DNA of 64,000 bases from Streptomyces sp. NBC_00691 (GTDB taxonomy: Bacteria; Actinomycetota; Actinomycetes; Streptomycetales; Streptomycetaceae), in assembly GCF_036226665.1 (NCBI RefSeq), contig NZ_CP109007.1:1488001-1552000 (forward strand), given 5' to 3'. Numbering within the stretch: the first letter of the stretch is position 1; every line of letters begins with the position of its first letter. Both the position numbers and the translations under genes were made by a program. The notes below the pieces were generated by a model. The model was not told the DNA's origin, did no database searches, and saw only the letters and a list, made by a program, of their open reading frames with translations. Positions 18,564 to 46,085 of the stretch are shown piece after piece.

Positions 18564-18708
18564 TCAGACGACGCCGAGGGCCGCGAGCGCCTTGCGCTGC
18601 GCGGGCGAGGGCCGCTCGGGGAAGTAGAGGTAACAGACCCCTCCTGTGCCGGAGACCACTTTCCCGCTCGCGTTGTACCGCTTGGTGCGGAGCCAGATGT
18701 TCTCCACA
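18564..18708 (-). pseudogene. displaced 3' end of the C39-like peptidase gene
   Basis: The reverse strand encodes 46 residues and a stop, beginning ENIWLRTKRYNASGKVVSGT and ending QRKALAALGVV, with no start. This matches the C-terminus of the peptidase at 44679-46085: 29 of 45 residues from ENIWL onward are identical. The stretch from the shared core to the stop is 142 nt in both places (18564-18705 and 44679-44820). Joining 18564-18705 to 44821-46085 restores an ORF of the same length, in frame. I read it as the native 3' end cut off by island insertion. Codon use here is normal for the chromosome. Confidence 0.85.
18691..18705. repeat. left attachment core of the island
   Basis: AGCCAGATGTTCTCC at 18691-18705 is repeated exactly at 44806-44820. 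It lies where homology to the peptidase 3' end stops on this side. In the peptidase it encodes ENIWL. Confidence 0.75.
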
Positions 18709-19549
18709 TGGGAGGGCGCCGCACACTACGCGGCACCCTCCTGCACAAACATGCAGGTCAGAGGCACGAACCATGCGAGGTAAATCGGGCGCAGATGCGC
18801 TGGTGCTGACCTGGTGCTGACTTCCGCCGGCGTCCGTTCCGGTCCGTTCGGGTGCGTCGTGCCGGATCGGTGCTGACTCCCTCCCCCGCCACATCTCCGT
18901 GCGGCGGTTCCCCGCCCGGGGCACGCGCAGGTGCTCGCACGCGTCATCGACACCGTCATGCGACGAGCAGAGACCTCCCCGCCGGACATCAGTCCGCTCC
19001 TTCCGTCCGACATCAACCGCATGGCACTCCTCCGGTTGGCTCGGATCCGCTCCATCGGCCGCGGCAGGTCGTTCCTGGACAACATTCCTTCCCGTAGGCA
19101 TTGCTTCGGCGCCGCCCCCTTCCTCAACTTCACGTCGGCACGGGAGGCGGGCCGTCTCCGTTCGGGTGGTGTCTACGTCATGACAGCCATGGAGATCGGC
19201 TAGACCTTCAGCGCGCCCGCGCTTCGCCATTGAGGCCCACAGGGCGAGGCCGGCGCTGACGGAGCGGAGGTGGCGCGGACTTCCAGCGGCGCGAATCCGC
19301 ACTGCGAATACGAGCGCGACCTGCCACGGCGGTTCAGATCGGTGTGCCACGGTTCAGTAGACGAGCGACTGACACTCGACAACAGAACCACAAGAACGTC
19401 TGCACGTTCAGTGCGGGTCTACTGAACTGGCTTCACCCTCTCATCTCCTCGCAATCAAAGCGTCCTTCATGCTTGACATGGATCCGACCGCGGGTGCCTC
19501 ATGGTGGACACCCCCGACGTGCAGGCCAGCGGCTCGGTCACAGAACTCT
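18709..19549. other. island left end, no recognisable gene
   Basis: About 840 bp without a supported gene. It begins with a hairpin (GGAGGG/CCCTCC arms, 18711-18741), then a small CTGCA/TGCAG stem, then three GGTGCTGAC repeats. Small frames on both strands around 18.7-19.2 kb lack family features and normal composition. An inverted repeat, GTTCAGTAGAC at 19352-19362 with GTCTACTGAAC at 19417-19427, frames the region upstream of the first mannanase. Confidence 0.5.
18802..18877 (+). repeat. left arm-type repeats (three GGTGCTGAC)
   Basis: GGTGCTGAC at 18802-18810 and 18813-18821 (11-bp step) and again at 18869-18877. The pair matches the pair at 44708-44727 near the other junction. Tyrosine integrases bind such tandem direct repeats on both arms of attP, which is the reading proposed here. 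Confidence 0.6.
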
Positions 19550-19561
19550 GACAACGTTGTC
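19550..19561. promoter_or_regulatory. LacI-type operator (motif A) upstream of the first mannanase
   Basis: The perfect palindrome GACAACGTTGTC lies 57 bp before the mannanase ATG, in the context TGACAACGTTGTCTA. The same 15-mer recurs at 36469-36483 in front of the ROK kinase gene. LacI-family operators typically centre on CG within such palindromes. Confidence 0.75.
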
Positions 19562-19618
19562 TAGTCGTCGGAGTTCTGCGCGGACGGGCTCCTTCCACCA
19601 TTTCTCACAAGGAGAGGC

Positions 19619-20911
19619 ATGACCAAGTCACCGCGCAGGACGTGGCTCACGGCCGCAGGCAGCGCCCTCGCCGGCGTCGCCGGGCTGCTGCTGCCCGTCT
19701 TCGGCACCGCCGGAGCCGCCCAGGCCGCCGACGGCGGCATCCACGTCAGCAACGGCCGCGTGTACGAGGCCAACGGCAACGAGTTCGTGATGCGCGGGGT
19801 CAACCACGCGCACGCCTGGTACCCGACCGAGACCGGGGCCATCACGGACATCGCCGCCAAGGGTGCCAACACCGTCCGCGTCGTCCTGTCCAGCGGCGAC
19901 CGCTGGACGGAGACGAGCGCCTCCCAGGTGTCGTCGATCATCGGCGACTGCAAGACCAGCAAGGTCATCTGCGTCCTGGAGGTGCACGACACCACCGGGT
20001 ACGGCGAGGACGGCGCCGCCGCCTCCCTCGACCAGGCCGCCGACTACTGGGTGGGCGTCAGGAGCGCCCTTCAAGGCCAGGAGGACTACGTCGTCGTCAA
20101 CATCGGCAACGAACCCTACGGAAACAGCGGTTACACCGCTTGGACCGGCGCGACCAAGAGCGCCATCGGGAAGCTCCGGAGCGCCGGCATCGAGAACGCG
20201 CTCATGGTGGACGCCCCCAACTGGGGCCAGGACTGGTCGAACACGATGCGCGACAACGCCGCCTCGGTCTTCGCCTCCGACCCGCGCCGCAACACGATCT
20301 TCTCGATCCACATGTACGGCGTGTACGACACGGCCGCCGAGGTCCAGAACTACCTCAACCACTTCGTGAACAACAGACTGCCGATCGTCGTCGGAGAGTT
20401 CGGCGACAACCACAGCGACGGCAACCCCGACGAGAACGCCATCATGGCCACCGCCCGCTCGCTCCGCGTCGGCTACCTGGGCTGGTCCTGGAGCGGCAAC
20501 GGCAGCGGCGTCGAGTACCTCGACATGGTCACCGGCTTCGGTCCGAACGCGCTCACCGCCTGGGGCGACCGCTTCTTCAACGGCGCCGACGGCATCTCCG
20601 CCACCTCCACCCGCGCCACGATCTATGGCGGCGGATCCAACGGCGGCGGCACCGGCGGCACTGCCCCGAACGGCTACCCGTACTGCCTGAACGGCAGCTC
20701 CTCCGACCCCGACGGCGACGGCTGGGGCTGGGAGAGCAACCGCTCCTGCGTCGTCCGCGGCAGCACCGCCGACACCGGGTCGGGCGGCGGCACTGCCCCG
20801 AACGGCTACCCGTACTGCCTGAACGGCAGCTCCTCCGACCCCGACGGCGACGGCTGGGGCTGGGAGAGCAACCGCTCCTGCGTCGTCCGCGGCAGCACCG
20901 CCGACCGCTGA
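19619..20911 (+). CDS. secreted endo-beta-1,4-mannanase, GH5 (subfamily 8-like) with two CBM10-like modules
   Basis: ATG 19619 with AAGGAG at 19609-19614; 430 residues. The signal peptide (SPRRTWLTAAGSALAGVAGL...AQAA) has a twin arginine and may use the Tat route. The GH5 domain spans about 38-335. The acid/base glutamate is E165 in VVVNIGNEPYGN, and the nucleophile is E260 in IVVGEFGDN. After a Gly/Thr linker come two copies of a CBM10-like module (NGYPYCLNGSSSDPDGDGWG). It cuts internal beta-1,4 bonds of mannan outside the cell. Its paralogue at 32433 shares the catalytic domain but has a CBM2. A motif A operator lies just upstream. Confidence 0.92.
   Translation: MTKSPRRTWLTAAGSALAGVAGLLLPVFGTAGAAQAADGGIHVSNGRVYEANGNEFVMRGVNHAHAWYPTETGAITDIAAKGANTVRVVLSSGDRWTETSASQVSSIIGDCKTSKVICVLEVHDTTGYGEDGAAASLDQAADYWVGVRSALQGQEDYVVVNIGNEPYGNSGYTAWTGATKSAIGKLRSAGIENALMVDAPNWGQDWSNTMRDNAASVFASDPRRNTIFSIHMYGVYDTAAEVQNYLNHFVNNRLPIVVGEFGDNHSDGNPDENAIMATARSLRVGYLGWSWSGNGSGVEYLDMVTGFGPNALTAWGDRFFNGADGISATSTRATIYGGGSNGGGTGGTAPNGYPYCLNGSSSDPDGDGWGWESNRSCVVRGSTADTGSGGGTAPNGYPYCLNGSSSDPDGDGWGWESNRSCVVRGSTADR
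20654..20905 (+). repeat. exact 120-bp duplication encoding two CBM10-like modules
   Basis: 20654-20773 and 20786-20905 are identical over 120 bp, separated by a 12-bp spacer. Each unit encodes one module. The absence of even silent differences points to a very recent duplication or gene conversion. Confidence 0.92.
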
Positions 20912-20917
20912 GGCACC

Positions 20918-20970: not shown

Positions 20971-22731
20971 TCAGGCCAGCTGGGTGGCCTGCAGACGGGC
21001 GTACGCGGAGTCGCGGGCGAGCAGTTCCCGGTGGCTCCCGGACTCCACCACCCGCCCCCGTTCCAGCACCACGATCCGGTCCGCCCGCCTGATCGTGGAG
21101 AGCCGGTGAGCCACGACGAAGACCGTCCGGCCGGCGACGAGGCGGGCGAGAGCCTCCTGGACCTGTGCCTCGGAGCGGGCGTCCAGCGCCGAGGTCGCCT
21201 CGTCGAGCACCAGCACCCGGGGGTCGCGGACGAGGGCCCGGGCGATCGCGAGCCGTTGGCGCTGGCCGCCGGAGAGCCGGGCGCCGCGCTCGCCCACGAC
21301 GGTGTCGAGGCCGTCCGGGAGCGCGTCGACGAACTCCGCGGCGTTGGCGTCACGCAGGGCGCGCCGCAGTGTCTCGTCGTCGACGCGCTCCATGCCGTAG
21401 GTGACGTTCTCGCGGATGCTTCCCTCGAAGAGGACGGACTCCTGGGGGACGACGGAGACGAATCTGCGGAAGCTCCGCAGATCCAGCTCCGCCATGTCCT
21501 GTCCGTCGAGGCGGACCCGGCCGGCCGTGGGGCGGTGGAAGCCGAGCACCAGGTTGAGCAGGGTGGACTTCCCGGCGCCGGAACCGCCGACGATCGCGAG
21601 GGTGGTCCCGACCGGCACGTCGAGGTCCACGTCGCTCAGGGCGGGCTCGTCGGCGTCGCCGTGCGTGAGACCCACGCCCTCGAACCGGAACGCCCCGGCG
21701 ACCGAATCGACCCGCCGCTTGCCGTCGTTCGTCTCCAGGTCGGGTGCCTGGAGGACCTCACCGACGGACTTGAGGGACTCCGCGGCCTTGCCCACCACGG
21801 GCGCGAGGGCGAGCAGGCTCGTCACGGCTCCGGTGAGGGTGGAGAAGTAGGCGCTGAGCATGACGACCTCGCCCGGTGTGACCGACGTCCACCCGTAGTA
21901 GGCGACGAGCGCCGCGCCCGCGAGACAGGCCGTGCCGAGGCCGTTGAAGACGACCCAGGACAGGGATCCGAAGCGGGCGTTGAGCAGGTCGAGCCGGGTC
22001 CCCTCGCGCTGCACCCGGTCGAGCTCGTGTCCGACGCGGCCCAGGGCCGCGCGCTCCAGCGCGTGGGCCCGGGTGATGGGGATGAGGGTGGCCATGTCCG
22101 TGACGGAGGCGGACATGCGCTCCACCGAACGCCGGTAGGAGGTGTTCCCCTCGCCGAGCCGCGCGCGCAGGGCCCCGATGAGCAGCACGGCCACGGGGAC
22201 GAGGACGAGGAAGACCGGCAGGAAGACCGGGGTCACGACGGCGATGACGGCGAGGCCGCCGGCCAGCGTCGCGACGGCGGTGAGGCCGTTGTCCGCGGTC
22301 TGCTGGAGTCCCGTCTCCAAGGTCTCGACGTCCCGGACCACCTTGGCGTGCAGCACGGACGAGCTGGTGCGGCTGTGGAAGCCGATGGAGAGCTGCTGCA
22401 TCCGGGTCACGAGGGCGGACCGCAGATCGCGGCCGAGCCGGCGTACCGCCCCGTGCATCCAGCGGACGTACAGCAGGTGCAGCGGTGGGTTCAGGAGGAG
22501 GACCGTGAGCATCACGGCGCAGTTCCCCCACAGTTCGGAGATCGGCCGGTGCTCGACGACGACGTCGATCACGTTCGCCGTCACCGGGGGGAGCAGCCAG
22601 ACGGGCGCGTGCTTGGCGAAGAAGACCGCCACGGCCCCGGCGAGACGCGCGTGATCGGGCAGGAAGAGGTGGTGGACGGTGCGGATCGGGTGTTCGCCGC
22701 GGTAGCGGTGGTCGAGCGGACTGTTGTTCAT
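20971..22731 (-). CDS. ABC exporter, fused membrane and ATPase domains
   Basis: A 586-residue type IV half-transporter. Residues about 25-310 form the six-helix membrane domain. The nucleotide-binding domain has Walker A GGSGAGKST at about 385, the Q-loop VVPQESVLFEGSIRENVTYG, the signature LSGGQRQRLAIARAL, Walker B VLVLDEATSALD and the H-loop VVAHRLST. All catalytic residues are present. Half-transporters of this kind dimerise and export lipids, peptides or oligosaccharides. The substrate is unknown. It is inside the mannan island but has no obvious role in import, and it converges on the first mannanase. The start at ATG 22731 has only a distant GAAGGAAG. Confidence 0.9.
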   Translation of the reverse strand: MNNSPLDHRYRGEHPIRTVHHLFLPDHARLAGAVAVFFAKHAPVWLLPPVTANVIDVVVEHRPISELWGNCAVMLTVLLLNPPLHLLYVRWMHGAVRRLGRDLRSALVTRMQQLSIGFHSRTSSSVLHAKVVRDVETLETGLQQTADNGLTAVATLAGGLAVIAVVTPVFLPVFLVLVPVAVLLIGALRARLGEGNTSYRRSVERMSASVTDMATLIPITRAHALERAALGRVGHELDRVQREGTRLDLLNARFGSLSWVVFNGLGTACLAGAALVAYYGWTSVTPGEVVMLSAYFSTLTGAVTSLLALAPVVGKAAESLKSVGEVLQAPDLETNDGKRRVDSVAGAFRFEGVGLTHGDADEPALSDVDLDVPVGTTLAIVGGSGAGKSTLLNLVLGFHRPTAGRVRLDGQDMAELDLRSFRRFVSVVPQESVLFEGSIRENVTYGMERVDDETLRRALRDANAAEFVDALPDGLDTVVGERGARLSGGQRQRLAIARALVRDPRVLVLDEATSALDARSEAQVQEALARLVAGRTVFVVAHRLSTIRRADRIVVLERGRVVESGSHRELLARDSAYARLQATQLA

Positions 22732-24060: not shown

Positions 24061-24165
24061 CTGTCCCGGAGCGACCTGACCACCTTGTAGATCATTTCGT
24101 CAGGAGTTCCAAGAGCATGACCTGGCGGTATGGTCGGGGTGTCGAGGGTTCAGGATGGAGCTGGG

Positions 24166-25203
24166 GTGGCAGTGAAGCGGCCGACGATGGCGGACATCGC
24201 ACGTCGGGCGGGTGTGTCAAAGGTGGCGGTCTCGTACGCGCTCAACGACCAGCCCGGAGTCTCGGAGGCCACCCGTGCCTCGATCAAGAGCATCGCCGAG
24301 GAGCTGGGGTGGCGGGCTAACAGTGCGGCCCGGGCGCTGACCGGCGGGCGGGCGCAGGCGGTCGGGCTGGTTGTGCGGCGGCCGGCGCGGACGCTCGGGG
24401 TGGAGCCCTTCTTCATGGAGTTCATCAGCGGTGTGGAGGCGGTGCTCGCCGAGCGTTCGTACGCGCTGATGCTCCAGATGGCGGCCGACCAGGCGCAGGA
24501 GATCGAGGTATGCCGGCGCTGGTGGGGCGAGCGCCGAGTCGACGGCGTCTTCCTCATGGACCTGCTGACCGAGGACGAACGGGTCGGAGCGGTCCGGGAG
24601 ATCGGACTGCCCGCGGTCGTGATCGGGCCGCCGGAGGGGGCCGGGGGCCTGCCGGCCATCTGGTCGGACGACGGCGAGAGCGTGTACGAGATCGTGCGGT
24701 ACCTGGCGGCTCTGGGGCATCGGCGGATCGCGCGGGTGGCGGGCCCTGCCGGGCTCGCGCACACGGCGGCCCGCGACGCAGCGCTCGCTGAGGCATGCCG
24801 GGAGGTCGGCGTCCCGGCGGCGACGGTCGTGCACACGGACTACACCGGGGACGAGGGCGCGCGGGCCGCGCGGGCCCTCCTGATCGCGCCCGAACGGCCG
24901 ACGGCCATCGTCTTCGACAACGACATCATGGCGGTGGCTGCGCTGTCGGTGGCACAGGAGCTGGGCCTGTCGATCCCCGCCGACGTGTCGATCGTGGCCT
25001 GGGACGAGTCTCCGCTGACGCAGGTGGTGCGCCCGATGCTGTCGGCGGTCACCCGCGACATCCCGGCGTACGGGGCCCGCTCCGCGACCGCGCTGCTCGC
25101 CCTGATCGGCGGGGAGGACGTCGGCAGCATGCGCGAGGGGTACGCACACTTCGTGCCCCGGGGCAGCACCTCTCCCCCGCCGTCGGAGCCGGGCCCGCGC
25201 TGA
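24166..25203 (+). CDS. LacI-family regulator 1 of the mannan locus
   Basis: GTG 24166 (GGAG 5 nt upstream; GTG 24172 is an alternative) gives 345 residues. The DNA-binding head is TMADIARRAGVSKVAVSYAL with the hinge region SAARALTGGRAQ. The effector domain has the periplasmic-binding-protein fold (PFFMEFISGVEAVLAERSYA, IVFDNDIMAVAAL, ADVSIVAWDESPLTQVVRP). It closely resembles the second LacI protein at 31226 in the effector domain but differs in the recognition helix (VAVSYAL against GAVSIAF), so the two probably read different operators. It converges on the importer operon and likely senses a manno- or cello-oligosaccharide; that is inference. Confidence 0.9.
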   Translation: MAVKRPTMADIARRAGVSKVAVSYALNDQPGVSEATRASIKSIAEELGWRANSAARALTGGRAQAVGLVVRRPARTLGVEPFFMEFISGVEAVLAERSYALMLQMAADQAQEIEVCRRWWGERRVDGVFLMDLLTEDERVGAVREIGLPAVVIGPPEGAGGLPAIWSDDGESVYEIVRYLAALGHRRIARVAGPAGLAHTAARDAALAEACREVGVPAATVVHTDYTGDEGARAARALLIAPERPTAIVFDNDIMAVAALSVAQELGLSIPADVSIVAWDESPLTQVVRPMLSAVTRDIPAYGARSATALLALIGGEDVGSMREGYAHFVPRGSTSPPPSEPGPR

Positions 25204-25277: not shown

Positions 25278-26156
25278 CTACTTGGTGGCTCCCTGGGCGA
25301 AGCCGTTGTAGATCCACCGCTGGAGGATCAGAAAGACGATCAGCGTCGGGACGATGACGAGGATCGCTCCGGCGGAGATGGCCTCCCAGTGGGCTCCGAA
25401 GGGGCCCTTGAAGCGGAAGAGAGCTGTGGAGATGGTCCCCAGGTCCTCGGAGTGCATGTAGAGAAAGGGGATGTAGAAGTCGTTGTAAGTGGTGATCCCC
25501 TTGATGATGACGACGGTGGCGATGGCGGGCTTGAGCAGCGGGAAGATGATCTTCCGGTAGATGGTGAAGGCGTTGGCACCGTCGAGCCGGGCGGCCTCGT
25601 CGAGTGAGACGGGGATGCCCCGGATGAACTGCAGGAAGATGTAGACCGAGACGATGTCGGTGCCCATGTAGAGGAGGATCGGGGCCCACCGGGTGTCGAT
25701 CAGGCCGAAGCTGTTGATCACCTGGAAGGTCGCGACCTGGGTGGTGACGCTGGGCACGAGGGTGGCGATCAGGAAGCCGGCCATCACGAGCTTCTTGCCG
25801 CGGAAGTCGAAGCGGTCGACGGCGTACGCGGTCATCGACCCGATGACCACCGTGCCGCCGATGGAGAAGACGAGGATGAACGCGGTGTTCCCGAAGGCCG
25901 TGAGCATCTTGCCGTCGTTGAACGCCGTGACGTAGTTGTCGAGGTTCAGCCAGTTTCCCGGCAGGGACAGCGCGCTGCCCTCGCCCACCTCCTCCGAGGT
26001 CTTCAGCGAGGTGAGGAAGACGACCGCCAGCGGGAGCAGCACGACCACCGAGGCCACGATCAGCGACAGGTAGGTCAGCACGCCGCCGACGGGCAGGCGC
26101 CGGCGGGCGGAGCGAGCCGGACGGGCCGGGGCGGCGGTGAGGTCGGGGGAGGTCAT
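25278..26156 (-). CDS. sugar ABC importer permease, MalG type
   Basis: ATG 26156 overlaps the upstream stop (ATGA), giving 292 residues. Six membrane helices follow the N-terminal basic stretch PARSARRRLPVGG. The coupling loop toward the ATPase is SLDEAARLDGANAFTIYRKIIFPLLKPA, the EAA motif of carbohydrate importers. It is the last gene of the binding protein-MalF-MalG operon. No ATPase gene is present; in Streptomyces many such importers share the MsiK ATPase encoded elsewhere. Context points to beta-manno-oligosaccharides as cargo. Confidence 0.92.
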   Translation of the reverse strand: MTSPDLTAAPARPARSARRRLPVGGVLTYLSLIVASVVVLLPLAVVFLTSLKTSEEVGEGSALSLPGNWLNLDNYVTAFNDGKMLTAFGNTAFILVFSIGGTVVIGSMTAYAVDRFDFRGKKLVMAGFLIATLVPSVTTQVATFQVINSFGLIDTRWAPILLYMGTDIVSVYIFLQFIRGIPVSLDEAARLDGANAFTIYRKIIFPLLKPAIATVVIIKGITTYNDFYIPFLYMHSEDLGTISTALFRFKGPFGAHWEAISAGAILVIVPTLIVFLILQRWIYNGFAQGATK

Positions 26157-27148
26157 ACGAGTTCCACCTTGTCGTCGGGCACGAGCCGGCGCTGGATCCA
26201 GGTGATCAGCAGGATGATCAGGAGCAGCACCACGGCCGCGGCCGAGGCCAGGCCGGTCTTGTTGAACTGGAAGGCGAGCTTGATCGTCTGGATGACGAAG
26301 GTCTGGGTGCCGGTGGCTCCGCCGGTCATGATGTAGGGGATCTCGAAGACCGACAGCGAGCCGGAGATCGCCAGGATGGCGCTCAGGCTGATCACGGGCT
26401 TGATGCTGGGCGCGATGATGTGCCGGAACTGCTTCCACTTCCCGGCCCCGTCCAGCTCCGCCGCCTCGTACAGCTCGCCAGGGATGGACTGGATCGCGCC
26501 GAGGAAGAGGACGAAGTTCAGTCCGGTGAACCGCCAGACCGAGACACCGGCGAGGGAGACATTGGCCGAGGTGGGGTCGCCGAGCCAGGGGTGGTCGGTG
26601 GTCACGCCGAGCCAGTCGAGGACCGAGTCGAGGGTGCCGCCGTCCTGGAAGAAGTACAGGAAGACGAAGCCGATGGCGACGCCGTTGATCAGGTAGGGGA
26701 AGAAGAGGATCCCCTTGAAGAAGTTCCGGAAGCGCAGGTTGAAGCTGAGGATCACCGCGAAGTACAGCGCGACCACGATCTGGACCACGGACGCCGCGAG
26801 GTAGTAGCCGCTGACGAAGAAGACGCGAAAGAGCTCGGGCCGGGTGAAGATCTGGACGTAGTTGTCGAACCCCACGTTCTCCCGGTCCGGGCTCACGCCG
26901 TCCCAGTCGGTGAAGCTGTACGAGATCATGCTCGCGACGGGGACGTACGTGAACGTGATCAGCAGCGCCAGCGGGGCCGCCAGGAAGAGCCAGGGCGTGA
27001 TCCGCCGGAGTGGCGAGTCACGCCACGACCTTGTGCGTCCGGCGGCGGGACCGCGCCGGCGGCCCTCTGTATCAGGCTTGGCCTTGTCCGTGCTGGATCG
27101 CCCTGTCATGGCGGCGCCCTCTGGTGCGGTGTCGGTGGTCTGGGTCAT
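26153..27148 (-). CDS. sugar ABC importer permease, MalF type
   Basis: A 331-residue permease. After a hydrophilic 45-residue N-terminus comes the first helix PWLFLAAPLALLITFTYVPVASMISYSFTDWDG, typical of UgpA/MalF proteins, then five more helices. The EAA loop is LYEAAELDGAGKWKQFRHIIAPSIKPV. It overlaps the MalG-type gene by 4 nt and lies 80 nt after the binding-protein gene, so all three form one transcription unit. It forms the heterodimeric channel with the MalG-type partner. Confidence 0.92.
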   Translation of the reverse strand: MTQTTDTAPEGAAMTGRSSTDKAKPDTEGRRRGPAAGRTRSWRDSPLRRITPWLFLAAPLALLITFTYVPVASMISYSFTDWDGVSPDRENVGFDNYVQIFTRPELFRVFFVSGYYLAASVVQIVVALYFAVILSFNLRFRNFFKGILFFPYLINGVAIGFVFLYFFQDGGTLDSVLDWLGVTTDHPWLGDPTSANVSLAGVSVWRFTGLNFVLFLGAIQSIPGELYEAAELDGAGKWKQFRHIIAPSIKPVISLSAILAISGSLSVFEIPYIMTGGATGTQTFVIQTIKLAFQFNKTGLASAAAVVLLLIILLITWIQRRLVPDDKVELV

Positions 27149-27228
27149 GTCGGCCTTTCGTGTCCGCAGCTGCGGGAGGTCCAGGGGCCCCGGCCGGTGT
27201 CGTGCGGCCGGGGCCCGCTCCGCCGGTC

Positions 27229-37340: not shown

Positions 37341-37380
37341 CGTGCGACTCGACGGCGCCCGCCGAACACCAGGAGCAGGC

Positions 37381-38073: not shown

Positions 38074-38104
38074 GCCTCCCGCCCGCGCCGCGCCACAGCC
38101 CCCT

Positions 38105-38340
38105 GGCCTACGCACCGAGAGCCTCGGGCTCGGCGCCGCCCTGTGGTCCCCACTCGACGGCGGACTCCTCACCGGCACGTACCGCACCTCCGCACAAGGG
38201 TGCCCGAGCGACCTGGGCGTGGTCGTCCACACCGAGAGCACCGGCCAGAAGACCGCCGCCGTCGACACCGTCCCGGCCATCGCCCAGGAGACCGGCGTGA
38301 CGCCCGCCCAGGTGGCGGCGGCCTGGTGCGCGGGCGCGCC
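38105..38340 (+). pseudogene. aldo/keto reductase fragment
   Basis: The frame starting RTESLGLGAALWSPLDGGLL and continuing TGTYRT, DLGVVVHTESTGQKTAAVDT, GVTPAQVAAAW matches the C-terminal half of an aldo/keto reductase. Both the N-terminal half and the end are missing. No start codon or ribosome site fits. It sits between an SDR and an NADP oxidoreductase and looks like a deletion remnant of a former redox operon. Confidence 0.7.
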
Positions 38341-38498
38341 GTCCGGTCGTGCCGGTGGCCTGACGGGTGAACGCGGTGAAGGACACAGTGCGCCGGCACC
38401 GCACGCAGAAGGACAACACAGACCAGTTCGTACGGGGAGAAGCCCGGCGCGAACGGAAGCCCCGCCCTCCCCTGGAGGGAGACGGAACGGAGACGACG

Positions 38499-39503
38499 AT
38501 GAAGGCATTCCTGATCGACAAGTACGGCGGCCCCTCCGAAATGCGCGCAACCGAGGTACCCGAGCCGCGGGTGGGCACCGAGGACGTCCTGGTCGAGATC
38601 CGGGCGGCGGGCGTGAACCCGCTGGACATCAAGCTCCGCGACGGGGCCTTCAAGGCGTTCCTGCCCTACCGGCTCCCGCTCGTCCTGGGCAACGACCTCG
38701 CCGGGAAGGTCATCCGGGTCGGCCCGTCCGTCACCCGCTTCGCCGTGGGCGACGAGGTCTACTCCCGGCCCGGCAAGGACCGCATCGGCACCTTCGCCGA
38801 ACGCCTCGCCGTCCACCAGGACGACCTGGCCCCCAAACCGGCCGCCCTCACGATGACCGAGGCCGCCTCTCTCCCCCTGGTTGCCCTGACCGCATGGCAG
38901 GCGCTGGTCGAACGGGCACGTGTGCGACCAGGCCAGAAGGTCCTCATCCACGCGGGCGCGGGTGGCCTCGGCTCCATCGCGGTCCAGCTGGCCAAGGCAC
39001 TGGGCGCGTACGTGGCCACCACCGCGAGCGCCGCCACGGCCGATCTGGTCAAGGAGCTCGGGGCGGACGAGGTCATCGACTACCGCACCCAGGACTTCGC
39101 GACTCTCCTCGACGGTTACGACCTCGTTCTGGACAGCCTGGGCGGCGAGAACCTCGCCAGATCCCTGGGGGTCCTCAAGCCCGGCGGAATGGCCATCAGC
39201 GTCGTGGGCCCGCCCGACGCCGCCTTCGCCCGCGAACTCGGCGTCAACCCGTTCCTACGCCTGGCCATGAGCGCACTCAGCTTCACGACCCGGCGCAGCG
39301 CCAAGCGTCGGGGCGTGACGTACTCGTTCCTGTTCATGAAGGCCAGTGGCGACCAGCTGCGCGAACTCACCCCACTCATCGACGCCGGAGAGATCCGCCC
39401 CATCGTCGACACCGTCTTCCCGTTCGACGACACCCTCCAGGCCGTGGAGTACGTCGAGAAGGGACGGGCCAAGGCCGGCAAGGTCGTCGTCGCAATGGCG
39501 TGA
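38499..39503 (+). CDS. NADP-dependent quinone oxidoreductase-like (zinc-free MDR)
   Basis: ATG 38499 with GGAG 6 nt upstream gives 334 residues. It is a medium-chain reductase without the zinc ligands: MKAFLIDKYGGPSEMRATEV, GVNPLDIKLRDGAF, LPLVLGNDLAGKVI, the NADPH motif GAGGLGSIAVQLAKALGA, and DLVLDSLGGENL. Such enzymes reduce quinones or enones with NADPH. It follows the SDR and the aldo/keto reductase remnant and may belong to the TetR-controlled unit. Confidence 0.92.
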   Translation: MKAFLIDKYGGPSEMRATEVPEPRVGTEDVLVEIRAAGVNPLDIKLRDGAFKAFLPYRLPLVLGNDLAGKVIRVGPSVTRFAVGDEVYSRPGKDRIGTFAERLAVHQDDLAPKPAALTMTEAASLPLVALTAWQALVERARVRPGQKVLIHAGAGGLGSIAVQLAKALGAYVATTASAATADLVKELGADEVIDYRTQDFATLLDGYDLVLDSLGGENLARSLGVLKPGGMAISVVGPPDAAFARELGVNPFLRLAMSALSFTTRRSAKRRGVTYSFLFMKASGDQLRELTPLIDAGEIRPIVDTVFPFDDTLQAVEYVEKGRAKAGKVVVAMA

Positions 39504-39704
39504 CGACGGAATCGAGCCGACGCACCGGTCGTCGCCGGCGACGGGGGATCCCCTACGCCCCGCTCCCCGCCGACACCGTCCGGGAACCCGGTCGTGAGGA
39601 CGGCGCGCAGTTCCCCGCCCGGCCCCGACGTCGTACGAGGAGCGTACGGACGACCGCGACACAGCCCTCTCGATACGGCGGAGCGAACGGCGCCCGCCGC
39701 GGTA

Positions 39705-41087
39705 CTAGCGGGTCGCGGAGGCCGCGATGGCCGCCTTGTACCAGTGGTAGGACGCCTTGGGGGTGCGCGTCCCGGTCGGAAAGTCGACGTGCACCAGGCC
39801 GAAGCGCCTGCTGTAACCGAACGCCCACTCGAAGTTGTCCAGGAGTGACCACGCGGTGTAGCCGCGCAGGTCGACGCCGTCCGCGATGGCTGCGGAGACC
39901 GCTCGGAGGTGGCCCTCCAGGTAGGAGATCCGGTCGACGTCGTACACGGTGCCGTCCGCGGCGGGGGCGTCGTGCTCGGCGGAGCCGTTCTCCGTGATGT
40001 GGATCGGCGGAAGGAGGGCGCCGTAGCGATCGCGGAGGGAGACGAGCAGGTCCCTCAGGGCGTCGGGGACGACGGCCCAGCCCATGGCGGTGTGGCGGAC
40101 GCCCGGGTGCGCCACACCTTCGAAACGGTTGTCCATCGCGGTGCGCAGGGCCGGATCGGTCTCGCGCCAGGGCGCCGCGCGCACGGTGGACGGCGTGTAG
40201 TAGTTGAGGCCGAGGAAGTCCATCGGAGCGGAGACGAGCGCGAGGTCACCCTCGCGGCGGAAGTCCTGGCGCTCGATCAGTTCTCCGAAGGCGTTCGTCT
40301 CACCGGGTGCGTAGCGTCCCGCCAGCAGGGGGTCGGTCCACATGAGGTTGCGCTGGGTCTCGGCACGCAGGGCGGCCGCGGCGTCGGCGGGGTCCGGCGT
40401 GGCCGGGCGGACCCGGTCGAGGTTGAGGGAGATGCCCGCTTCCTGGACCCCGGCGGCGCGCAGGGCGCCCATGGCCAGGCCGTGGCCGACCAGGAGGTGG
40501 TGGGCCGCGGCGAGCGCGGGCGTCCCCTCGCACGCTCCCGGAGCGTGCTCGCCGTTCGCGTATCCCAGGAAGGCACTGCACCAGGGCTCGTTCAGGGTGG
40601 TCCACCGGGGTACGCGGTCCCCGAGCTTCCCAACGACCAGGGCCGTGTACTCCGCGAAACGCTCGGCCGTGTCCCGGGACCGCCAGCCGCCCCTGTCCTC
40701 CAGGGGCTGGGGAAGGTCCCAGTGGTAGAGGGTGACGACCGGCTTGATGCCGGCCTCCAGCAGGTCGTCGACCAGGCGGGCGTAGAAATCGAGCCCCCGG
40801 GCGTTCACCGGTCCCGAGCCTTGCGGCTGGATGCGCGGCCATGCGACGGAGAAACGGTAGGCGGACACCCCGAGGTCCGCGAGGAGGGCCACGTCCTCCC
40901 GGTGCCGGTGGTAGTGATCGCAGGCCGTCTCGCCGCTGCCGCCGTCCGACACGGCGCCGGCGCGCCCCGAGAAGGTGTCCCAGATCGACGGCCCCCGCCC
41001 GTCCTCCTGTGTAGCGCCCTCGATCTGGTAGGCCGACGTGGCGGCACCGAATTCGAAGCCAGTGGGAAAGACCGGGAAGTCGCTCAC
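39705..41087 (-). CDS. beta-glucosidase/beta-mannosidase, GH1
   Basis: A 460-residue enzyme with the GH1 signatures FEFGAATSAYQIEGAT, YRFSVAWPRI, the acid/base E167 in TLNEPWCS and the nucleophile E366 in IHITENGSA, plus YTAWSLLDNFEWAFGY. No signal peptide is present, so it acts in the cytoplasm. In this locus it probably removes glucose from imported glucomannan oligosaccharides, complementing the GH2 beta-mannosidase; some GH1 enzymes also cleave mannosides. The divergent CE7 esterase shares its promoter region, which carries both operator motifs. Confidence 0.95.
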   Translation of the reverse strand: MSDFPVFPTGFEFGAATSAYQIEGATQEDGRGPSIWDTFSGRAGAVSDGGSGETACDHYHRHREDVALLADLGVSAYRFSVAWPRIQPQGSGPVNARGLDFYARLVDDLLEAGIKPVVTLYHWDLPQPLEDRGGWRSRDTAERFAEYTALVVGKLGDRVPRWTTLNEPWCSAFLGYANGEHAPGACEGTPALAAAHHLLVGHGLAMGALRAAGVQEAGISLNLDRVRPATPDPADAAAALRAETQRNLMWTDPLLAGRYAPGETNAFGELIERQDFRREGDLALVSAPMDFLGLNYYTPSTVRAAPWRETDPALRTAMDNRFEGVAHPGVRHTAMGWAVVPDALRDLLVSLRDRYGALLPPIHITENGSAEHDAPAADGTVYDVDRISYLEGHLRAVSAAIADGVDLRGYTAWSLLDNFEWAFGYSRRFGLVHVDFPTGTRTPKASYHWYKAAIAASATR

Positions 41088-41395
41088 GGAAACGGAGACC
41101 TCTCGTGCGGGGCGGGGACAACAGGTCCGAGCATGAAGGAATTCAGTTGCTCGATCCAGGGATTGCGGGTCCCGAAGAATCGGTTTTGCTAAACCCCGAC
41201 TTAACCGGGAAGGCTTCGCTGGACATCGTTGTCAAGAACGGGGCAGAGTGATCCTCGGCAGCCGCTGCCGGGCTGTCGCGGAAAAGCGGAACGCGAGGGC
41301 CTACGGAGCACGACACCGTTCCACCCCTCCCGTCGTACGACGACCCCGCCCCGCTCCCGGGCGCGGTCACCCCGTTCCGAGGAGAACCCCTTCCC
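41088..41395. other. divergent promoter region of GH1 and CE7 genes
   Basis: 308 bp without a gene. It holds the composite operator at 41199-41233 and an AT-rich stretch at 41170-41205 where both promoters are likely. Confidence 0.5.
41199..41233. promoter_or_regulatory. composite operator between GH1 and CE7 (motifs B and A)
   Basis: ACTTAACCGG (41199-41208, the reverse of CCGGTTAAGT) and GACATCGTTGTC (41222-41233) lie 13 bp apart. The arrangement repeats that upstream of the ROK kinase, relative to the CE7 gene direction. Confidence 0.65.
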
Positions 41396-42376
41396 ATGCC
41401 GTACACCGACCTGCCCCTTGACCACCCGGCCGCCCGGGACGAACCCCCGGTCGAGCCGGACGGCTTCGACGTCTTCTGGTCCGAGACCCTGCGGACGGCC
41501 CGCGAGGCCGGACGCGCTCCTGAGGTCCGTCCCGTGCCGGACTCCCCCCTGACCACCCTCGACACCTACGACGTACGGTTCTCCGGCTGGGGCGGTCACC
41601 CGGTCGCCGCCTGGCTCGTCCTCCCGTCGCAGGCCGAGGAACCGCTGCCGACGGTGATCACCTACCTCGGATACAGCGGCGGACGGGGCCTGGTGACCGA
41701 CCATCTCCTGTACGCCTCCGCCGGCTACGCCCAACTCGTCGTCGACAGCCGCGGCCAGGGCCACGACACCCCGGACCCCCACCCGGACGCGGGCCCCCAC
41801 TGGGTGCACGGCTACATGACCCGGGGCATCGAGGATCCACACGCCCACTACTACCGCCGCCTCGTCACCGACTGTGTCCTCGCCGTCGACGCCGCGCGCT
41901 CCATCCCGCACGTGGACCCGGACCGGATCGTCGTTCAGGGGGCCAGCCAGGGCGGTGGCCTCGCCCTCGCCGTGGCCGGTCTGGCCGGCGACGGCATCGC
42001 CGGAGCCCTCCCCGACGTGCCGTTCCTGTGCCACATCCGGCGGGGCGCCGAGACCGCGACCGAGGGGCCGTACACGGAAGTCGTCGACTACCTGCGCCTA
42101 CACTCCCCGCACGCGGCCGAGCGTGCGTTCGGGACCCTCGCCCACTTCGACGGCGTGCACTTCGCACGGCGGGCGACGGCCCCAACCCTGTTCAGCGCCG
42201 GGCTGATGGACCCCATCTGCCCCCCGTCCACCGTGCTGACGGCCTACCGGAACTACGCGGGCGAGAAGGACATCAGGGAATGGCCCTTCGCCGATCACGC
42301 GGGCGGAAGGGGCGCGACTGCCCTCGAGCACATGCGCTGGCTGCGCCTGCGGGGACTCGCCCCCACGGAGCGCTGA
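41396..42376 (+). CDS. CE7-type acetyl esterase (acetyl xylan esterase family)
   Basis: A 326-residue alpha/beta hydrolase. The CE7 order is present: VVDSRGQGHDTPD (RGQ motif), the nucleophile S184 in VVQGASQGGGLAL, the acid D272 in GLMDPICPPSTV and H301 in FADHAGG. Where classical members have a His-Glu pair, this one has His-Ala. There is no signal peptide, so it would remove acetyl groups from imported oligosaccharides, as expected for acetylated galactoglucomannan. It is divergent from the GH1 gene under shared operators. Confidence 0.92.
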   Translation: MPYTDLPLDHPAARDEPPVEPDGFDVFWSETLRTAREAGRAPEVRPVPDSPLTTLDTYDVRFSGWGGHPVAAWLVLPSQAEEPLPTVITYLGYSGGRGLVTDHLLYASAGYAQLVVDSRGQGHDTPDPHPDAGPHWVHGYMTRGIEDPHAHYYRRLVTDCVLAVDAARSIPHVDPDRIVVQGASQGGGLALAVAGLAGDGIAGALPDVPFLCHIRRGAETATEGPYTEVVDYLRLHSPHAAERAFGTLAHFDGVHFARRATAPTLFSAGLMDPICPPSTVLTAYRNYAGEKDIREWPFADHAGGRGATALEHMRWLRLRGLAPTER

Positions 42377-42717
42377 GGAGCCGATCCGCCACCGGCTCCC
42401 ACGACGCGGCGGCCGCGGGAGCCGAGCGGCTCCCGCCCTGCCCGTCAGCGTCCCGGACCGTTGCTCGGCCGGCGCCGCGTCCCGCCGGATCAACCCGTGC
42501 TGCTCACGGGAATGCCGACGCGCAGAGCTCGACGCGAGAGCCCGTGAGCCCTCGCCGCCCAGGAACGACCCCGCTTCGATCCGGGTTTCACCGCTCCCGA
42601 GCGGGCGCGCCAAGGGTCACAGCCCGTCCGGCCTGCGCGTCGCGCAGAGACCCGCGGTCCCCACGCGACGCGAAGGGCCTGCGGCATCGGCATGCGGGCG
42701 GCGGCCGTCGGGGGCGG
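42377..42717. other. convergent gap with one terminator
   Basis: 341 bp between the CE7 stop and the phytase stop. CGGGAGCCG/CGGCTCCCG (42416-42435) is a terminator hairpin. The rest shows no gene or repeat that I can support. Confidence 0.6.
42416..42435. terminator. terminator after the CE7 gene
   Basis: A 9-bp stem CGGGAGCCG/CGGCTCCCG with a 2-nt loop lies 40 nt after the stop. Confidence 0.7.
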
Positions 42718-44028
42718 TCAGTCGTCGAAGGCATCCATGACCTTGCCGAGGTCGACGAACTTGAAGTTGGTCGAGTCCCGGTCGCCGTCGCCGGGGGCGT
42801 TGTGCCCGTCCTGGACGACGAGGAGGCCGTGGGGGTACTTGGAGCCGAGCGGGGCGTTGAGGACGGCGGCGCCGTCGCACTCCTCGGAGCCGTCGAGGGT
42901 GTCGTTCGCGGCGGCGACCCGGAAGCCGCCCTCGTACTCGTTGGCGTCCTCCAGCTCGCGGTCGTAGGCGGCGAAGGTGTTGTCGCCCTGGCTGGAGGCG
43001 AGGAGGTAGCCGTCGCCGTCGGACTCGGTGAGCAGCGTCAGGCCCTCGACGTCCGCGGAGATCTTCTTGCCGCCGAAGCCGGGGTCGGCGCCCGGCGTGC
43101 ACTCCTCGGTCTCCTCGTCGTAGACGCCGGGGACGCCGTACTCGCGGACCTTGTCGATCAGCTTCGGCGTGCCGGTGAGGTCGGCGCGCAGCCGCCAGAT
43201 GCCGATGTCCTCCTGGCCGGCGTAGAGCATGCCGTTGGCCGGGTCGACGACCATGCCCTCGACCTGCGGCAGTTCGCCGGGCTCGCCGCACGGTGACCAC
43301 GAGGTGCCGTCGGGCAGCCGGAAGGAGGAGGGCAGGTCCAGGGTGCGGACCTTGCGGTAGGTGACCTTGCCGTCCACGGCCGGCAGCAGTTCCAGCAGGG
43401 CGATGCTGGTGCGCTCGCGGCGGCTGACCAGGGCGTACGACTTCCCGGTCGCCGGGTCCGTCCAGGTCGCCAGGCCGTAGGCGGTCCGCTGGTCGTTGAT
43501 CTCGGCCTGGTCCTGTGAGAACACGGGCGGTGCGGCGGGGCCGGTGACATCGGTCAGCGGACCGTCGGTGCGGTCGCGGTCGATGCGGTAGAACCGCAGC
43601 CGGTCGTGGCCCCGGTCGCTGGTGACGGCCAGGTCGGCCCTCCCCGAGGAGAGCCGCAGCCCGTGGACGAGGTCCACGTTGTTGAACCGGCCCGGGGCGT
43701 CGCCCCCGCCCTCGGCGGGTGGCGCGGCTATCGACTGCACCAGCCGCGCGTCCAGGTCGTAGACCCTCAGACCGCCCTCCTTGGCGGTGGCGACGACGAG
43801 ACTGCGGCCGGGGGCCACGGCGTTGCGCCAGATGGCCGGGTCGTCCGCGTCGGCGTTGCCACCCGCGTCGTCGTCGTGCAGCACCGGCGTCTCCGCACGA
43901 GGCGTCACGACCGGCAAGGTCTCGGCGTACGCGCGGTACCGGGCCTCGGCGGGCACGGCCAGTGCCGCCGCCACGAGAGCCGTGGTCACGGTCAGGACGG
44001 CTGATCGGACGATGGTGGAGCGATTCAC
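42718..44028 (-). CDS. secreted 3-phytase-like beta-propeller
   Basis: GTG 44028 with GGAGAC upstream gives 436 residues. A Sec signal peptide (residues 1-28, ending VPAEA) is followed by a six-bladed propeller typical of BPP phytases: DADDPAIWRNAVAPGRSLVVATAKEGGLRVYDLDAR, FNNVDLVHGLRL, LPQVEGMVVD, LYAGQEDIGIWRL and ISADVEGLTLL are hallmark segments. The acidic DDDAGGNADADDP stretch fits calcium binding. The family releases phosphate from calcium phytate outside the cell. It lies inside the island next to the integrase remnant and has no regulatory motif shared with the mannan genes. Confidence 0.93.
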   Translation of the reverse strand: MNRSTIVRSAVLTVTTALVAAALAVPAEARYRAYAETLPVVTPRAETPVLHDDDAGGNADADDPAIWRNAVAPGRSLVVATAKEGGLRVYDLDARLVQSIAAPPAEGGGDAPGRFNNVDLVHGLRLSSGRADLAVTSDRGHDRLRFYRIDRDRTDGPLTDVTGPAAPPVFSQDQAEINDQRTAYGLATWTDPATGKSYALVSRRERTSIALLELLPAVDGKVTYRKVRTLDLPSSFRLPDGTSWSPCGEPGELPQVEGMVVDPANGMLYAGQEDIGIWRLRADLTGTPKLIDKVREYGVPGVYDEETEECTPGADPGFGGKKISADVEGLTLLTESDGDGYLLASSQGDNTFAAYDRELEDANEYEGGFRVAAANDTLDGSEECDGAAVLNAPLGSKYPHGLLVVQDGHNAPGDGDRDSTNFKFVDLGKVMDAFDD

Positions 44029-44544
44029 GCAAGTCTCCTCTGCAGGGGGGTGGTTGGACCGGCGAGAGCCTGGTTCCGCAGAGTGTCGGTAGGGCAGCCG
44101 CCGCACGGCGGGTAACGCCGGACTCCGGTGTACTTCCGGTGAACGAGCATCCGCCGCGCCGTCGCACACGCCCGTGGCCCTGTAGATGTGCGCGCGGATC
44201 GCGTGGCCCGTGCCGGGCAGGCTCCTGACGGTCGTTCCTGTCACCCTTGCCGTGGACACCGCCGCCGCGGTCCGCCTCGATCAGCAGGGCTTCATCACGG
44301 AACCTCTTCCCGGCTCACGTCGATGCGAGGTGAGGGACGAGAAACGCCTTCTCCCGGATCGTCCGCGTCGCCTCGGCCGGGGACGGGGCGATGACGGCCA
44401 GGGCCCCGACGGGTTCACGTACGGAGCGGCGGACCAGCACGCGAAGCTCCTGGCAGACGCGGGTGATCTCGGTCGAGGACCCGTCCAGCAGGAGCTTCGT
44501 CGTTGCGCAGGCATGCCCAGCTCGCGGTCGGCACCGCCGGCCTG
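44029..44544. other. region upstream of phytase and integrase remnant
   Basis: About 500 bp. The first 150 bp should hold the phytase promoter (reverse strand). Farther right a reverse-strand frame ending at 44315 (SSTEITRVCQELRVLVRR, EATRTIREKAFLV) has protein-like composition but no recognisable family and no start. It may be another gene fragment joined to the integrase remnant. Confidence 0.4.
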
Positions 44545-44731
44545 GAAGAGGCTCCAGGTGTCGCGCCGGCTCGGACATCGTTCGATCAAGGTCACGGTGG
44601 ACCGGTACGGCCACCTCACGCAGGACGGCCAGGAGCGTTGCCGTCAGGTCGTCGAGACGGCCGTGGGGCCGCACATGCTCAAAGCAGGCCGAGCTCCCGC
44701 AGCGCGCGGTGCTGACTTGGTGCTGACTTGA
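44545..44731 (+). pseudogene. C-terminal remnant of a tyrosine integrase
   Basis: The frame reads RRLGHRSIKVTVDRYGHLTQ, then DGQERCRQVVETAVGPHM and ends GADLVLT at 44731. LGH and the DRYGHL tyrosine are the last two active-site boxes of phage-type tyrosine recombinases. Upstream, the catalytic Arg/Lys and HxxR regions are absent, so the gene is truncated. Its 3' end runs into the right arm-type repeats and overlaps the peptidase 3' end on the other strand by 53 bp. This is the layout expected for an integrase gene abutting its own att site. Confidence 0.8.
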
Positions 44732-46085
44732 CCGGCCAGAAGATGTAGCAGACACCCCCCGTACCGCTTCTGACCTTGCCGTTTGCGTCGTACCTCTTCG
44801 TACGCAGCCAGATGTTCTCCCACTCGCGCCGCCGGTAGACCCGGCGGACGGCCTCGTTGCTGGGTGAGGCGGGGTCGTTCGCGATGACGTCGCCGTCCGC
44901 CGTGAAGCCGATGACGGTCATGAGGTGGCCGGAGGTGCCGTACCCGGCGCCGGTCAGTTCCTCCTTGAGGAAGGACTGGGACGTTATGGCCGGGATGCCG
45001 GCCCGGATCAGGCTCTCCAGTTCGGTGAGCGAGCGCAGCCGGGTGACCACGGCGTTCATGTCGGGGTACGTGGCCGCGTAGGCGGCGTTGAAGGGCCAGT
45101 TGCCGCAGCCCTCGTACTGGTGGTCGAAGGTGAAGCGGGCCGCGTGGCAGACCTGGGGGTCGGCGAAGTCCGGGTTCACCCAGGCCAGCTCCTCGGCCGA
45201 CGGCCGGCGTCCCCAGTACTCGACGATCATCTGGGAGGAGGTCGGGCTGCACCAGGCCTCGCCGCCGTTGTCGTACTCCGGGTACTGACCGACGTGGGTG
45301 TTCTGCGAGTAGCGCGGCACGGGCAGCTCGGCGGCCGGGCCCGGCGCGGAGGCCGGGACGGAGAAGCGGTCCGGGATGTCGGAGGCCATCGCGCCGAGCC
45401 GCCAGACCGTGGGCGTGAGACCGCTGCCCGGGGCGCGGTGGAGCGTGAGCCGCAACCGGTACGAGGTCAGCCGCACCCCGCTCGTCGCGTCGTCGATGGC
45501 GAAGGTGTCCGTCCAGACGGTGCTCCTGCCGTCGGTCTGGTCGTCGACCGAGGTCCGCCGGATGTCGTCGTCCCCGGAGGCCCAGCGGCCCAGGACGTAC
45601 CAGGGGGTGGAGCTCGTGTCCGTGTACGTGCCGGAGAGCTCGACCTGGATCCAGGTGCCGGGCGGGGTGTGGGCGTTCCAGGAGGCGATGACCTCGGTGG
45701 CGGGCACCGTCGGGGTGTGCGTCGGCGAGGTCCAGGTCGCGTACTCCCACGCGGAGGTGCGCCCGGTGTGCGGGTCCGTGTAGTCGGTGCGCCCGGCCGG
45801 GGTGGCGAGGACCAGGGCCGGGCGGTGCCCGGCCACCGCCTTCGTACCGGCCGCGCTGCCGCACCTCCAGTCCGTGTACGAGGACCAGAAGCGGTTGTCG
45901 ACGAGGCCGGGCGCGGGGGCGTGGCCGCGCCCCGTGCCCTCGGCGGTGGCCGGGTCCGGGGCCGCGGGTGGCCGGTCGGCGGCGCGGTCGGGAACGGCGG
46001 CCACGGCGGGAGCGGCCGCGGCGGCCGTGCCGGCGGCCGCGAGGGCCGCCGCGAGAACGGTTCTGCGCGGGGTGGAGCTGGTCAT
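44679..46085 (-). CDS. secreted C39-like (peptidase_C39_2) protein, 3' end replaced by the island
   Basis: ATG 46085 gives 468 residues. A twin-arginine signal (STPRRTVLAAALAAAGTAAA) suggests Tat export. After a beta-rich N-terminal half, the papain-like domain has C279 in GGEAWCSPTSSQ, H387 in GTSGHLMTVIG and an Asp/Asn in VIANDPAS. The last 46 codons come from the inserted island: after the shared ENIWL core the codons change to forms rare in the chromosome (AGG, AGA, GGT, GCA), while the protein remains similar to the displaced native end at 18564. The gene therefore stays complete. Substrate and partners are unknown. Confidence 0.92.
   Translation of the reverse strand: MTSSTPRRTVLAAALAAAGTAAAAAPAVAAVPDRAADRPPAAPDPATAEGTGRGHAPAPGLVDNRFWSSYTDWRCGSAAGTKAVAGHRPALVLATPAGRTDYTDPHTGRTSAWEYATWTSPTHTPTVPATEVIASWNAHTPPGTWIQVELSGTYTDTSSTPWYVLGRWASGDDDIRRTSVDDQTDGRSTVWTDTFAIDDATSGVRLTSYRLRLTLHRAPGSGLTPTVWRLGAMASDIPDRFSVPASAPGPAAELPVPRYSQNTHVGQYPEYDNGGEAWCSPTSSQMIVEYWGRRPSAEELAWVNPDFADPQVCHAARFTFDHQYEGCGNWPFNAAYAATYPDMNAVVTRLRSLTELESLIRAGIPAITSQSFLKEELTGAGYGTSGHLMTVIGFTADGDVIANDPASPSNEAVRRVYRRREWENIWLRTKRYDANGKVRSGTGGVCYIFWPVKSAPSQHRALRELGLL
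44708..44727 (+). repeat. right arm-type repeats (two GGTGCTGAC)
   Basis: GGTGCTGAC at 44708-44716 and 44719-44727 (11-bp step), in the integrase 3' codons and also within the replaced peptidase 3' end. They match the left pair at 18802-18821 in sequence, spacing and orientation. Confidence 0.6.
44806..44820. repeat. right attachment core of the island
   Basis: AGCCAGATGTTCTCC at 44806-44820, identical to 18691-18705, inside the peptidase codons for ENIWL. Confidence 0.75.

Follow-up and report, generated by a model that had tools for sequence, protein, structure and literature searches.

The peptidase gene and its two 3′ ends

The window analysed here is a 64-kb stretch of Streptomyces DNA (positions 1,488,001–1,552,000 of contig 1 in a genome of 8.33 Mb), in which an island of 26,115 bp, measured core to core, occupies the 3′ end of a gene for a C39-like peptidase. 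The analysis was comparative throughout, combining sequence comparison with structure prediction. The gene (46085–44679, minus strand) encodes 468 amino acids, with a Peptidase_C39_2 domain (PF13529) at residues 254–406. Its host part, upstream of the core (44821–46085, minus strand), contains this domain and shares 95% nucleotide identity with the nearest relative, L002, over an upstream alignment of 990 columns. The last 142 nt (44679–44820, minus strand), comprising 46 codons and a stop, lie beyond the C39_2 domain and have a counterpart on the same strand at the far end of the island (18564–18705). The two ends are identical at 92 of 142 nt, compared with a mean of 38.3 and a maximum of 56 in 2000 letter shuffles of one end. 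They share one reading frame, giving tails of 46 residues plus a stop that are 64% identical over 45 residues (29/45). The far copy, whose open frame spans only 53 amino acids here, is near-identical to the tails of L002 and L009 and of the same type; it is the displaced native 3′ end, whilst the copy on the resident gene is an island-borne substitute.

The exact block common to both ends is the 15-bp core GGAGAACATCTGGCT (= AGCCAGATGTTCTCC), present on the peptidase side at 44806–44820 and on the far side at 18691–18705, with differing bases to either side of it. The peptidase core contains ATCTGGCT, and codon variants inside the core (WEN, WET and WEQ) were uninformative by eye as to the position of the crossover. 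The body of the island (18706–44678) is absent at uninterrupted loci.

The initial annotation of this DNA had described a 26-kb island in the 3′ end of the peptidase gene, the native last 142 nt displaced to 18564–18705, a resident copy ending in 142 homologous nt of the same frame and length, 29 of 45 tail residues in common, and a core shared by both ends. All of this is borne out, including the polarity, as the nearest relatives have the displaced tail on an uninterrupted gene. The comparison adds two features: a remnant of an integrase gene on the plus strand, ending at 44731 within the substitute tail, and paired CAGCACC motifs at both ends of the island.

Tail types and uninterrupted sites in other Streptomyces

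Relatives of the locus were collected by a scan of genome contigs, and tails were typed by the residues following the RY of WLRTKRY, with D-A-N-G or similar taken as element-type and N-A-S-G or similar as native-type. Among the best 80 of 368 matches, 37 tails were element-type, like that of the window gene, and 43 native-type, a proportion that is biased because the query itself has an element-type tail and these loci are its best matches. For an even sample, 140 Streptomyces genomes were searched. The peptidase tail was found in 136 of them, and in 26 of the 136 the resident tail favoured the element type by 5 bits or more (a hand count that includes the window's own genome). An element-like tail (83.6 bits) also lies on contig 529 of G375 (4,062–4,196), a genome from another genus of the family, which suggests that these integrative elements extend beyond Streptomyces.

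When the left flank of the window (to 18705) is joined to the right flank (from 44821), the resulting sequence aligns in one piece across the junction with L009 (92.8%) and with L011, L026 and L028 (85–89%). All four have a native-type tail and an acyl-CoA dehydrogenase gene 273–396 bp past the stop, the arrangement that the initial annotation had put forward as a check on its proposal. L002 has a native tail too, and its contig ends soon after the gene. The dehydrogenase follows within 273–4355 bp in 39 of the 43 native-type genes, and none of the 43 has a second tail within its locus. Sequence marks of gene-targeting elements with a compensating end are found at this site: relatives have the target gene uninterrupted, both junctions share a short exact core (15 bp in the window, a core that recurs at most of the other listed junctions), and an in-frame homologous substitute end goes together with a displaced native end. 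Peptidase ends unrelated to the core, which the initial annotation had named as a contrary case, were not seen among the relatives' ends examined.

On a quick tree built from the part of the gene that precedes the core (990 columns, 88 genes), the tail type must change 16 times, at least 8 of the changes being forced by the starred branches, compared with an average of 29.6 for shuffled labels. Unlike tails also occur in close pairs such as L017/L028 and L043/L108. The changes may be gains or losses, because excision would restore the native tail.

Second tails, left ends and fossils

A search of 49 genome handles with the native tail (G143 and G202 being one genome) located a second tail on the same contig in 17 genomes, at 3.2 to 111.5 kb from the resident tail. 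Tail-to-tail distances include 5.3 kb (G214/L019), 13.2 kb (G218/L023), 26.1 kb (the window), 27.6 kb (G209/L014), 72.6 kb (G230/L041), 108.7 kb (G064), 109.8 kb (G191) and 111.5 kb (G090). Weaker tail fragments and copies on other contigs are also among the matches listed. Other elements share this core within the peptidase gene, an outcome that the initial annotation had proposed to look for. The gene end is a hotspot, and the window represents one instance of it.

The left end of the element in the window (18706–18890) has an inverted repeat, GGAGGG..CCCTCC, beside the core, and TGACCTGCATGTTTG. It could be aligned with others at 18 junctions, three of which (L140, L144 and L147) are on contigs other than that of the resident gene. 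The motif TGACC(T/A)G followed by TTT stands near the core in 18/18, and CCCTCCCA adjoins the core in 12 of them. Over the last 180 nt the other 17 left ends are 68–87% identical to that of the window, with shuffled maxima of 62–66%.

A number of the second tails are of the element type in their turn (L135, L136, L137, L139, the 3297 copy of L138 and the copy in L042), a pattern in tail sequences that indicates serial occupancy of the site. In G090 (contig 1, 7,897,680–8,009,314; L117, L118, L161–L165), two substitute tails and two full-length integrases stand in tandem, separated by 111.5 kb; the native-tail search gave no third tail that would belong to the second element. Behind the element-type tails of L022, L010, L046 and L017, decayed native tails lie within 900 nt (E values from 2e-23 to 1e-7) and are followed by the host downstream genes, whilst no such tail stands behind any of the 43 native-type tails. 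Judged by their sequence and position, the decayed native tails are apparently fossils of lost elements.

A tyrosine integrase tied to the site

Full-length tyrosine integrases (PF00589, PF14659) are encoded antisense to the peptidase in L008 and L041 and overlap its last 53 nt. The window remnant overlaps the peptidase in the same way (44679–44731). This C-terminal remnant (44555–44731, plus strand) retains the box LGHRSIKVTVDRYGHL, has its stop inside the substitute tail and is 86% identical to residues 327–383 of the L041 integrase. A full-length integrase adjoins the attachment (att) site in L008, L041, L082 and L083; in the window only the remnant does.

Integrase sequence beside the tails was sought by tblastn with the L041 protein (E ≤ 1e-4, antisense, within about 4 kb downstream). 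Similarity, whether to a gene or to a remnant, was detected at 18 of 37 element-type loci and at none of the 43 native-type loci. For all 88 genes (the 80, seven further loci and the window), the figures are 26/45 and 0/43, the seven having been reached through integrase searches. In the converse direction, six integrases in 199 Streptomyces genomes align over almost the whole query with an identity of at least 60%, and a peptidase tail stands beside five of them (two in G090 and one each in G064, G191 and G156). At 23 loci with integrase identity of 44% or less (L086–L107, L109) there was no peptidase match, except for two at E values of 0.12 and 0.36.

In an alignment of 38 relatives, K250, H307, R310, H333 and Y343 do not vary and R209 hardly does; we take these to be the catalytic R-K-H-R-H-Y residues. 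At residues 8–59 the predicted structure (mean predicted local distance difference test score 86.3, predicted template modelling score 0.72) forms a unit of three strands plus a helix, followed by the core-binding and catalytic parts. The best Foldseek matches were Tn1549 Int (residues 82–397, template modelling (TM) score 0.56) and lambda Int (350 columns, TM score 0.50), the latter with a root mean square deviation of 10.7, so that the domains are placed differently. The predicted N-terminal fold, together with repeats on both sides of the core, would fit a heterobivalent integrase of the lambda type.

Paired repeats in the substitute end

The pattern TCAGCACCNNGTCAGCACC, a pair of CAGCACC motifs with an 11-bp period, occurs at two places in the 64-kb window, one at either end of the island, and in none of 100 shuffles. 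One pair lies in the substitute tail (44708–44726, minus strand), as the likely P′ arm-type sites; the other lies at the left end (18802–18820, minus strand), as the likely P arm-type sites, with a third, single copy at 18869–18875. The P′ pair codes for S-A-P-S-Q-H of the peptidase and, antisense, for G-A-D-L-V-L-T, the last residues of the integrase.

Tails were scored by matches to the 14 specified positions of CAGCACCNNNNCAGCACC. The nine tails that adjoin integrase sequence spanning 250 amino acids or more each have all 14, three of these integrases being broken (L015, L019 and L042). Mean scores were 12.0 for 17 tails with shorter remnants, 9.95 for 19 element-type tails without integrase and 8.6 for the 43 native tails. 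In tails without remaining integrase similarity the repeats are degenerate and the reading frame is kept, which may reflect decay after loss of the integrase. At the four third-codon positions within the arms, the nine tails have an entropy of 0, against 0.73 outside the arms (permutation p = 0.009); in 18 element-type tails without integrase the values are 0.82 and 0.65.

The exact pattern was found 39 times in 2.5 Mb of fetched loci, a figure that includes repeat counts from overlapping loci. Judged by where they lie, 37 of the copies belong to a peptidase tail, a left end or a sister integrase, and five of these adjoin sister integrases without a peptidase tail (L087, L088, L089, L092 and L102); the other two (L006:17392 and L146:1807) resemble decayed tails. 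Integrase 3′ ends were scored to 200 bp past the end at 29 of the loci L081–L110, L101 having no usable C-terminal segment. Scores of 12 or more were obtained in 6/6 cases at 60% identity or above, in 13/16 at 35–60% and in 0/7 below 35%, with a control mean near 9. The 13 include L110, a decayed remnant belonging to the close kind; with L110 set aside, the middle class stands at 12/15. On the left-arm side, an exact CAGCACC is present, once or more, at 15 of the 18 junctions.

These distributions bear on the possibility that the pairs reflect ordinary codon usage in the peptidase tail. The pairs are in frame and code for tolerated residues, as codon usage would have it. They are also present at the left end, outside the gene, and beside sister integrases in other contexts, and they are degenerate in tails without integrase, so that we regard this explanation as unlikely. 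The pairs are more likely arm-type sites of the integrase; as the P′ arm is set inside the last codons of the peptidase, the DNA used in recombination would dictate part of the enzyme's C-terminal sequence.

At seven sister integrases (L087, L088, L089, L090, L092, L095 and L102; about 38–55% best-segment identity), CAGCACC-type repeats stand in a shared context, ACGTTGAAGCGGAACGTT or near variants, instead of the peptidase core. This context is a candidate second target site of the wider integrase clade. A tRNA target was considered and rejected, as there is no tRNA gene in the window or in 15 sister-integrase loci.

Transfer genes

Search criteria for actinobacterial integrative and conjugative elements (ICEs) of the type IV secretion system (T4SS) kind call for an integrase with a type IV coupling protein, a VirB4-like protein and a relaxase (PMC3218068, in its accessible text). 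The 72.6-kb G230 element, from S. macrolidinus, encodes SCO6881- and SCO6880-family proteins, a VirB4-like ATPase, a TraG/TraD coupling protein and a relaxase, and the 109.8-kb G191 element has the same transfer set. Both elements thus combine integrase, relaxase, coupling protein and VirB4-like ATPase within their att ends, as a T4SS-type ICE does. The window island, with its integrase remnant only, gave no match to the T4SS genes tested and falls outside that gene-set definition.

The family might instead consist of prophages or of actinomycete integrative and conjugative elements (AICEs) of the TraB/Rep kind. The window island and the G064 element are without the T4SS genes tested, and three elements of about 110 kb carry FtsK/SpoIIIE-type ATPases, both of which would suit that view. 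The PF01580 matches inside G064, G191 and G090, however, are EccC of type VII secretion (G064, by NCBIfam) or proteins 91–92% identical to it, which weighs against a TraB-type AICE; PF01580 was matched neither in the window island nor anywhere on the contig that carries the G230 element. VirB4-like ATPase, coupling protein and relaxase are all present in the elements of G230 and G191. The window integrase remnant had no match in a phage search, and phage and plasmid records searched with the full integrase gave only matches below 60% identity. A prophage or AICE origin for the family is accordingly very unlikely in our estimation.

Interpretation

We consider it highly probable, on the comparison of sequences, that the island is a decayed 26.1-kb member of a family of integrative elements that insert into the 3′ end of the C39-like peptidase gene, each element supplying a substitute end. 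A lambda-type tyrosine integrase would insert the element at the end of the gene, with strand exchange inside the core and with the integrase's predicted N-terminal domain bound to the CAGCACC pairs on either side as arm-type sites. The substitute end would keep the resident gene in frame, and the native end would be displaced to the far end of the island. The last 46 codons are then probably a module in triple use, as the tail of a host enzyme, as the antisense C-terminus of the integrase and as arm-binding sites. On the same footing, the C-terminus has probably been switched at least 8 times in the sampled tree, and a rewritten tail can outlive its element and become a lasting part of the host protein.

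A number of observations weigh against this reading. The hybrid tails of L032, L036 and L062 show that ordinary homologous recombination also reshuffles the tail and that the two types are not clean. They would favour an account in which the tail was swapped by homologous recombination, duplication or inversion and the island arose separately. That account leaves unexplained the displaced native tail at the far end of the island, the occurrence of a related left end next to the core at 18 junctions and the confinement of integrase similarity to element-type tails (18/37 against 0/43), and we hold it to be exceedingly improbable. Among the left ends, L134 (68%) and L035 (69%) are barely above shuffled sequences over the 180 nt, and the left arms of L035, L042 and L129 (3/18 junctions) have no exact CAGCACC; the p values for the repeats are optimistic, because the compared sequences are related. 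The sixth close integrase, in G086 (contig 3, 359,338–360,471, L084; 65–66% identity, one internal TGA), has arm-like repeats and no adjoining peptidase tail, and the tail-adjacent integrase of G156 has two internal TGAs. As for transfer functions, G090 has a VirB4-like part with coupling protein and relaxase unmatched, and the G064 element has none of the transfer genes tested.

An observation of the same tendency comes from contig 1 of G098, which has an intact native gene and, elsewhere, an integrase remnant with an element-type tail (positions 328,037 and 6,672,025; L123, L148). The remnant and its tail, at 328 kb, share the contig with the native gene, and they represent either a secondary-site insertion or a translocation.

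With respect to its present state rather than its origin, the window island may be a relic that cannot move at all. It retains the last stretch of the integrase only, and no transfer gene tested was found in it; its core and both repeat pairs are perfect, so that a related integrase might still act on it in trans. We give the inert and the mobilisable states about equal weight. As an integrated element that has lost the body of its integrase and kept its core and arms, the window copy would be movable only in trans, if at all.

Relation to known systems

In Escherichia coli, the icd gene is the integration target of phage 21 and also of e14, which is the closest case to the peptidase islands. 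According to the accessible text on e14, the element displaces 163 bp of the 3′ end of icd and supplies its own end (PMC6379469). The likeness lies in insertion near the 3′ end of a protein gene, with a homologous in-frame end supplied and the native end displaced. The two differ in that e14 is a prophage of E. coli in another gene, whereas the islands described here target a C39-like peptidase gene in Streptomyces and include two members with conjugation genes. The predicted arm sites within the exon may be a further difference. More generally, the Islander and TIGER work holds that attP usually has a replacement sequence that keeps the target gene working, for tRNA and protein genes alike, and the accessible parts of these papers do not name the peptidase target or this integrase clade (PMC10111431; PMC12884075). 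A survey of 11 Streptomyces strains placed 14 of 51 insertion sites in protein genes, the peptidase not being named in its accessible text (PMC9513070). The dusA-targeting integrases, as described in the part of the report at hand, likewise tie one family to one protein gene in many hosts (PMC4482086), but at the 5′ end of dusA, whereas another gene is used here at its 3′ end.

AICEs have an FtsK/SpoIIIE-type protein and mostly use tRNA genes, whereas in the present family a single integrase clade follows a single gene, one of six integrases being the exception. The pathogenicity island PAISt of Streptomyces turgidiscabies, inserted by a tyrosine recombinase, sits in bacA with the 8-bp palindrome TTCATGAA as its core; it differs in this core, and no substitute exon is mentioned in the accessible part of its abstract. 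The initial annotation had known of no report for this peptidase family. Our search of the open literature, which did not extend to supplementary tables of the likely papers, likewise returned no description of the peptidase as a target, or of a substitute exon that contains arm sites. Compensating gene ends are already known from e14; what would be new here, on that search, is the target gene and the predicted arm sites within the exon.

The locus offers a natural record of mobile elements overwriting a conserved gene end, with empty and occupied sites, tandem and serial occupancy, and fossils. A predicted site-specific integrase family with a defined attB in a gene of 136/140 sampled genomes would be useful for strain engineering, and the repeats in the tail lend themselves to a clean test of the extent to which protein sequence can be set by a site of recombination.

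Cargo

The cargo carried at this site includes mannan-type, type I-E-like Cas, lanthipeptide and type VII secretion genes. In the window, Pfam domains support the mannan-type cargo proposed by the initial annotation. From the left end, the island encodes a mannanase-like enzyme of glycoside hydrolase family 5 (GH5) with a CBM_10 domain (19619–20911, plus strand; PF00150, PF02013), an ABC transporter with fused membrane and ATPase domains (20971–22731, minus; PF00664, PF00005), a LacI-family regulator (24130–25203, plus; PF00356, PF13377), a permease and solute-binding protein for sugar uptake (26153–28554, minus; PF00528, PF01547), a mannosidase-like GH2 enzyme (28830–31229, plus; PF22666, PF00703) and a second LacI-family regulator (31226–32272, plus; PF00356, PF13377). 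These are followed by a GH5 enzyme with CBM_2 (32433–34076, minus; PF00150, PF00553) and, within 34080–36412 (minus), by a phosphomannose isomerase (34080–35276; PF20511) and a ROK sugar kinase (35438–36412; PF00480). The remaining cargo (36702–44259, assigned by Pfam) consists of a TetR regulator, a short-chain dehydrogenase, a zinc dehydrogenase, a GH1 enzyme, an AXE1 esterase and a phytase.

The G230 element carries Cas3, Cse1 and Cas_CT1975 genes, a set that we take to be type I-E-like, together with LanB and LanC genes (L149:5275–13052, L152:4583–8899); distant homologues of the Cas genes are present in the G064 element. The elements of about 110 kb in G064, G191 and G090 have EccC and EccD of type VII secretion in common (L154:10436–17089 and homologues), and in G064 an Imm49 gene lies near EccD and EccC.

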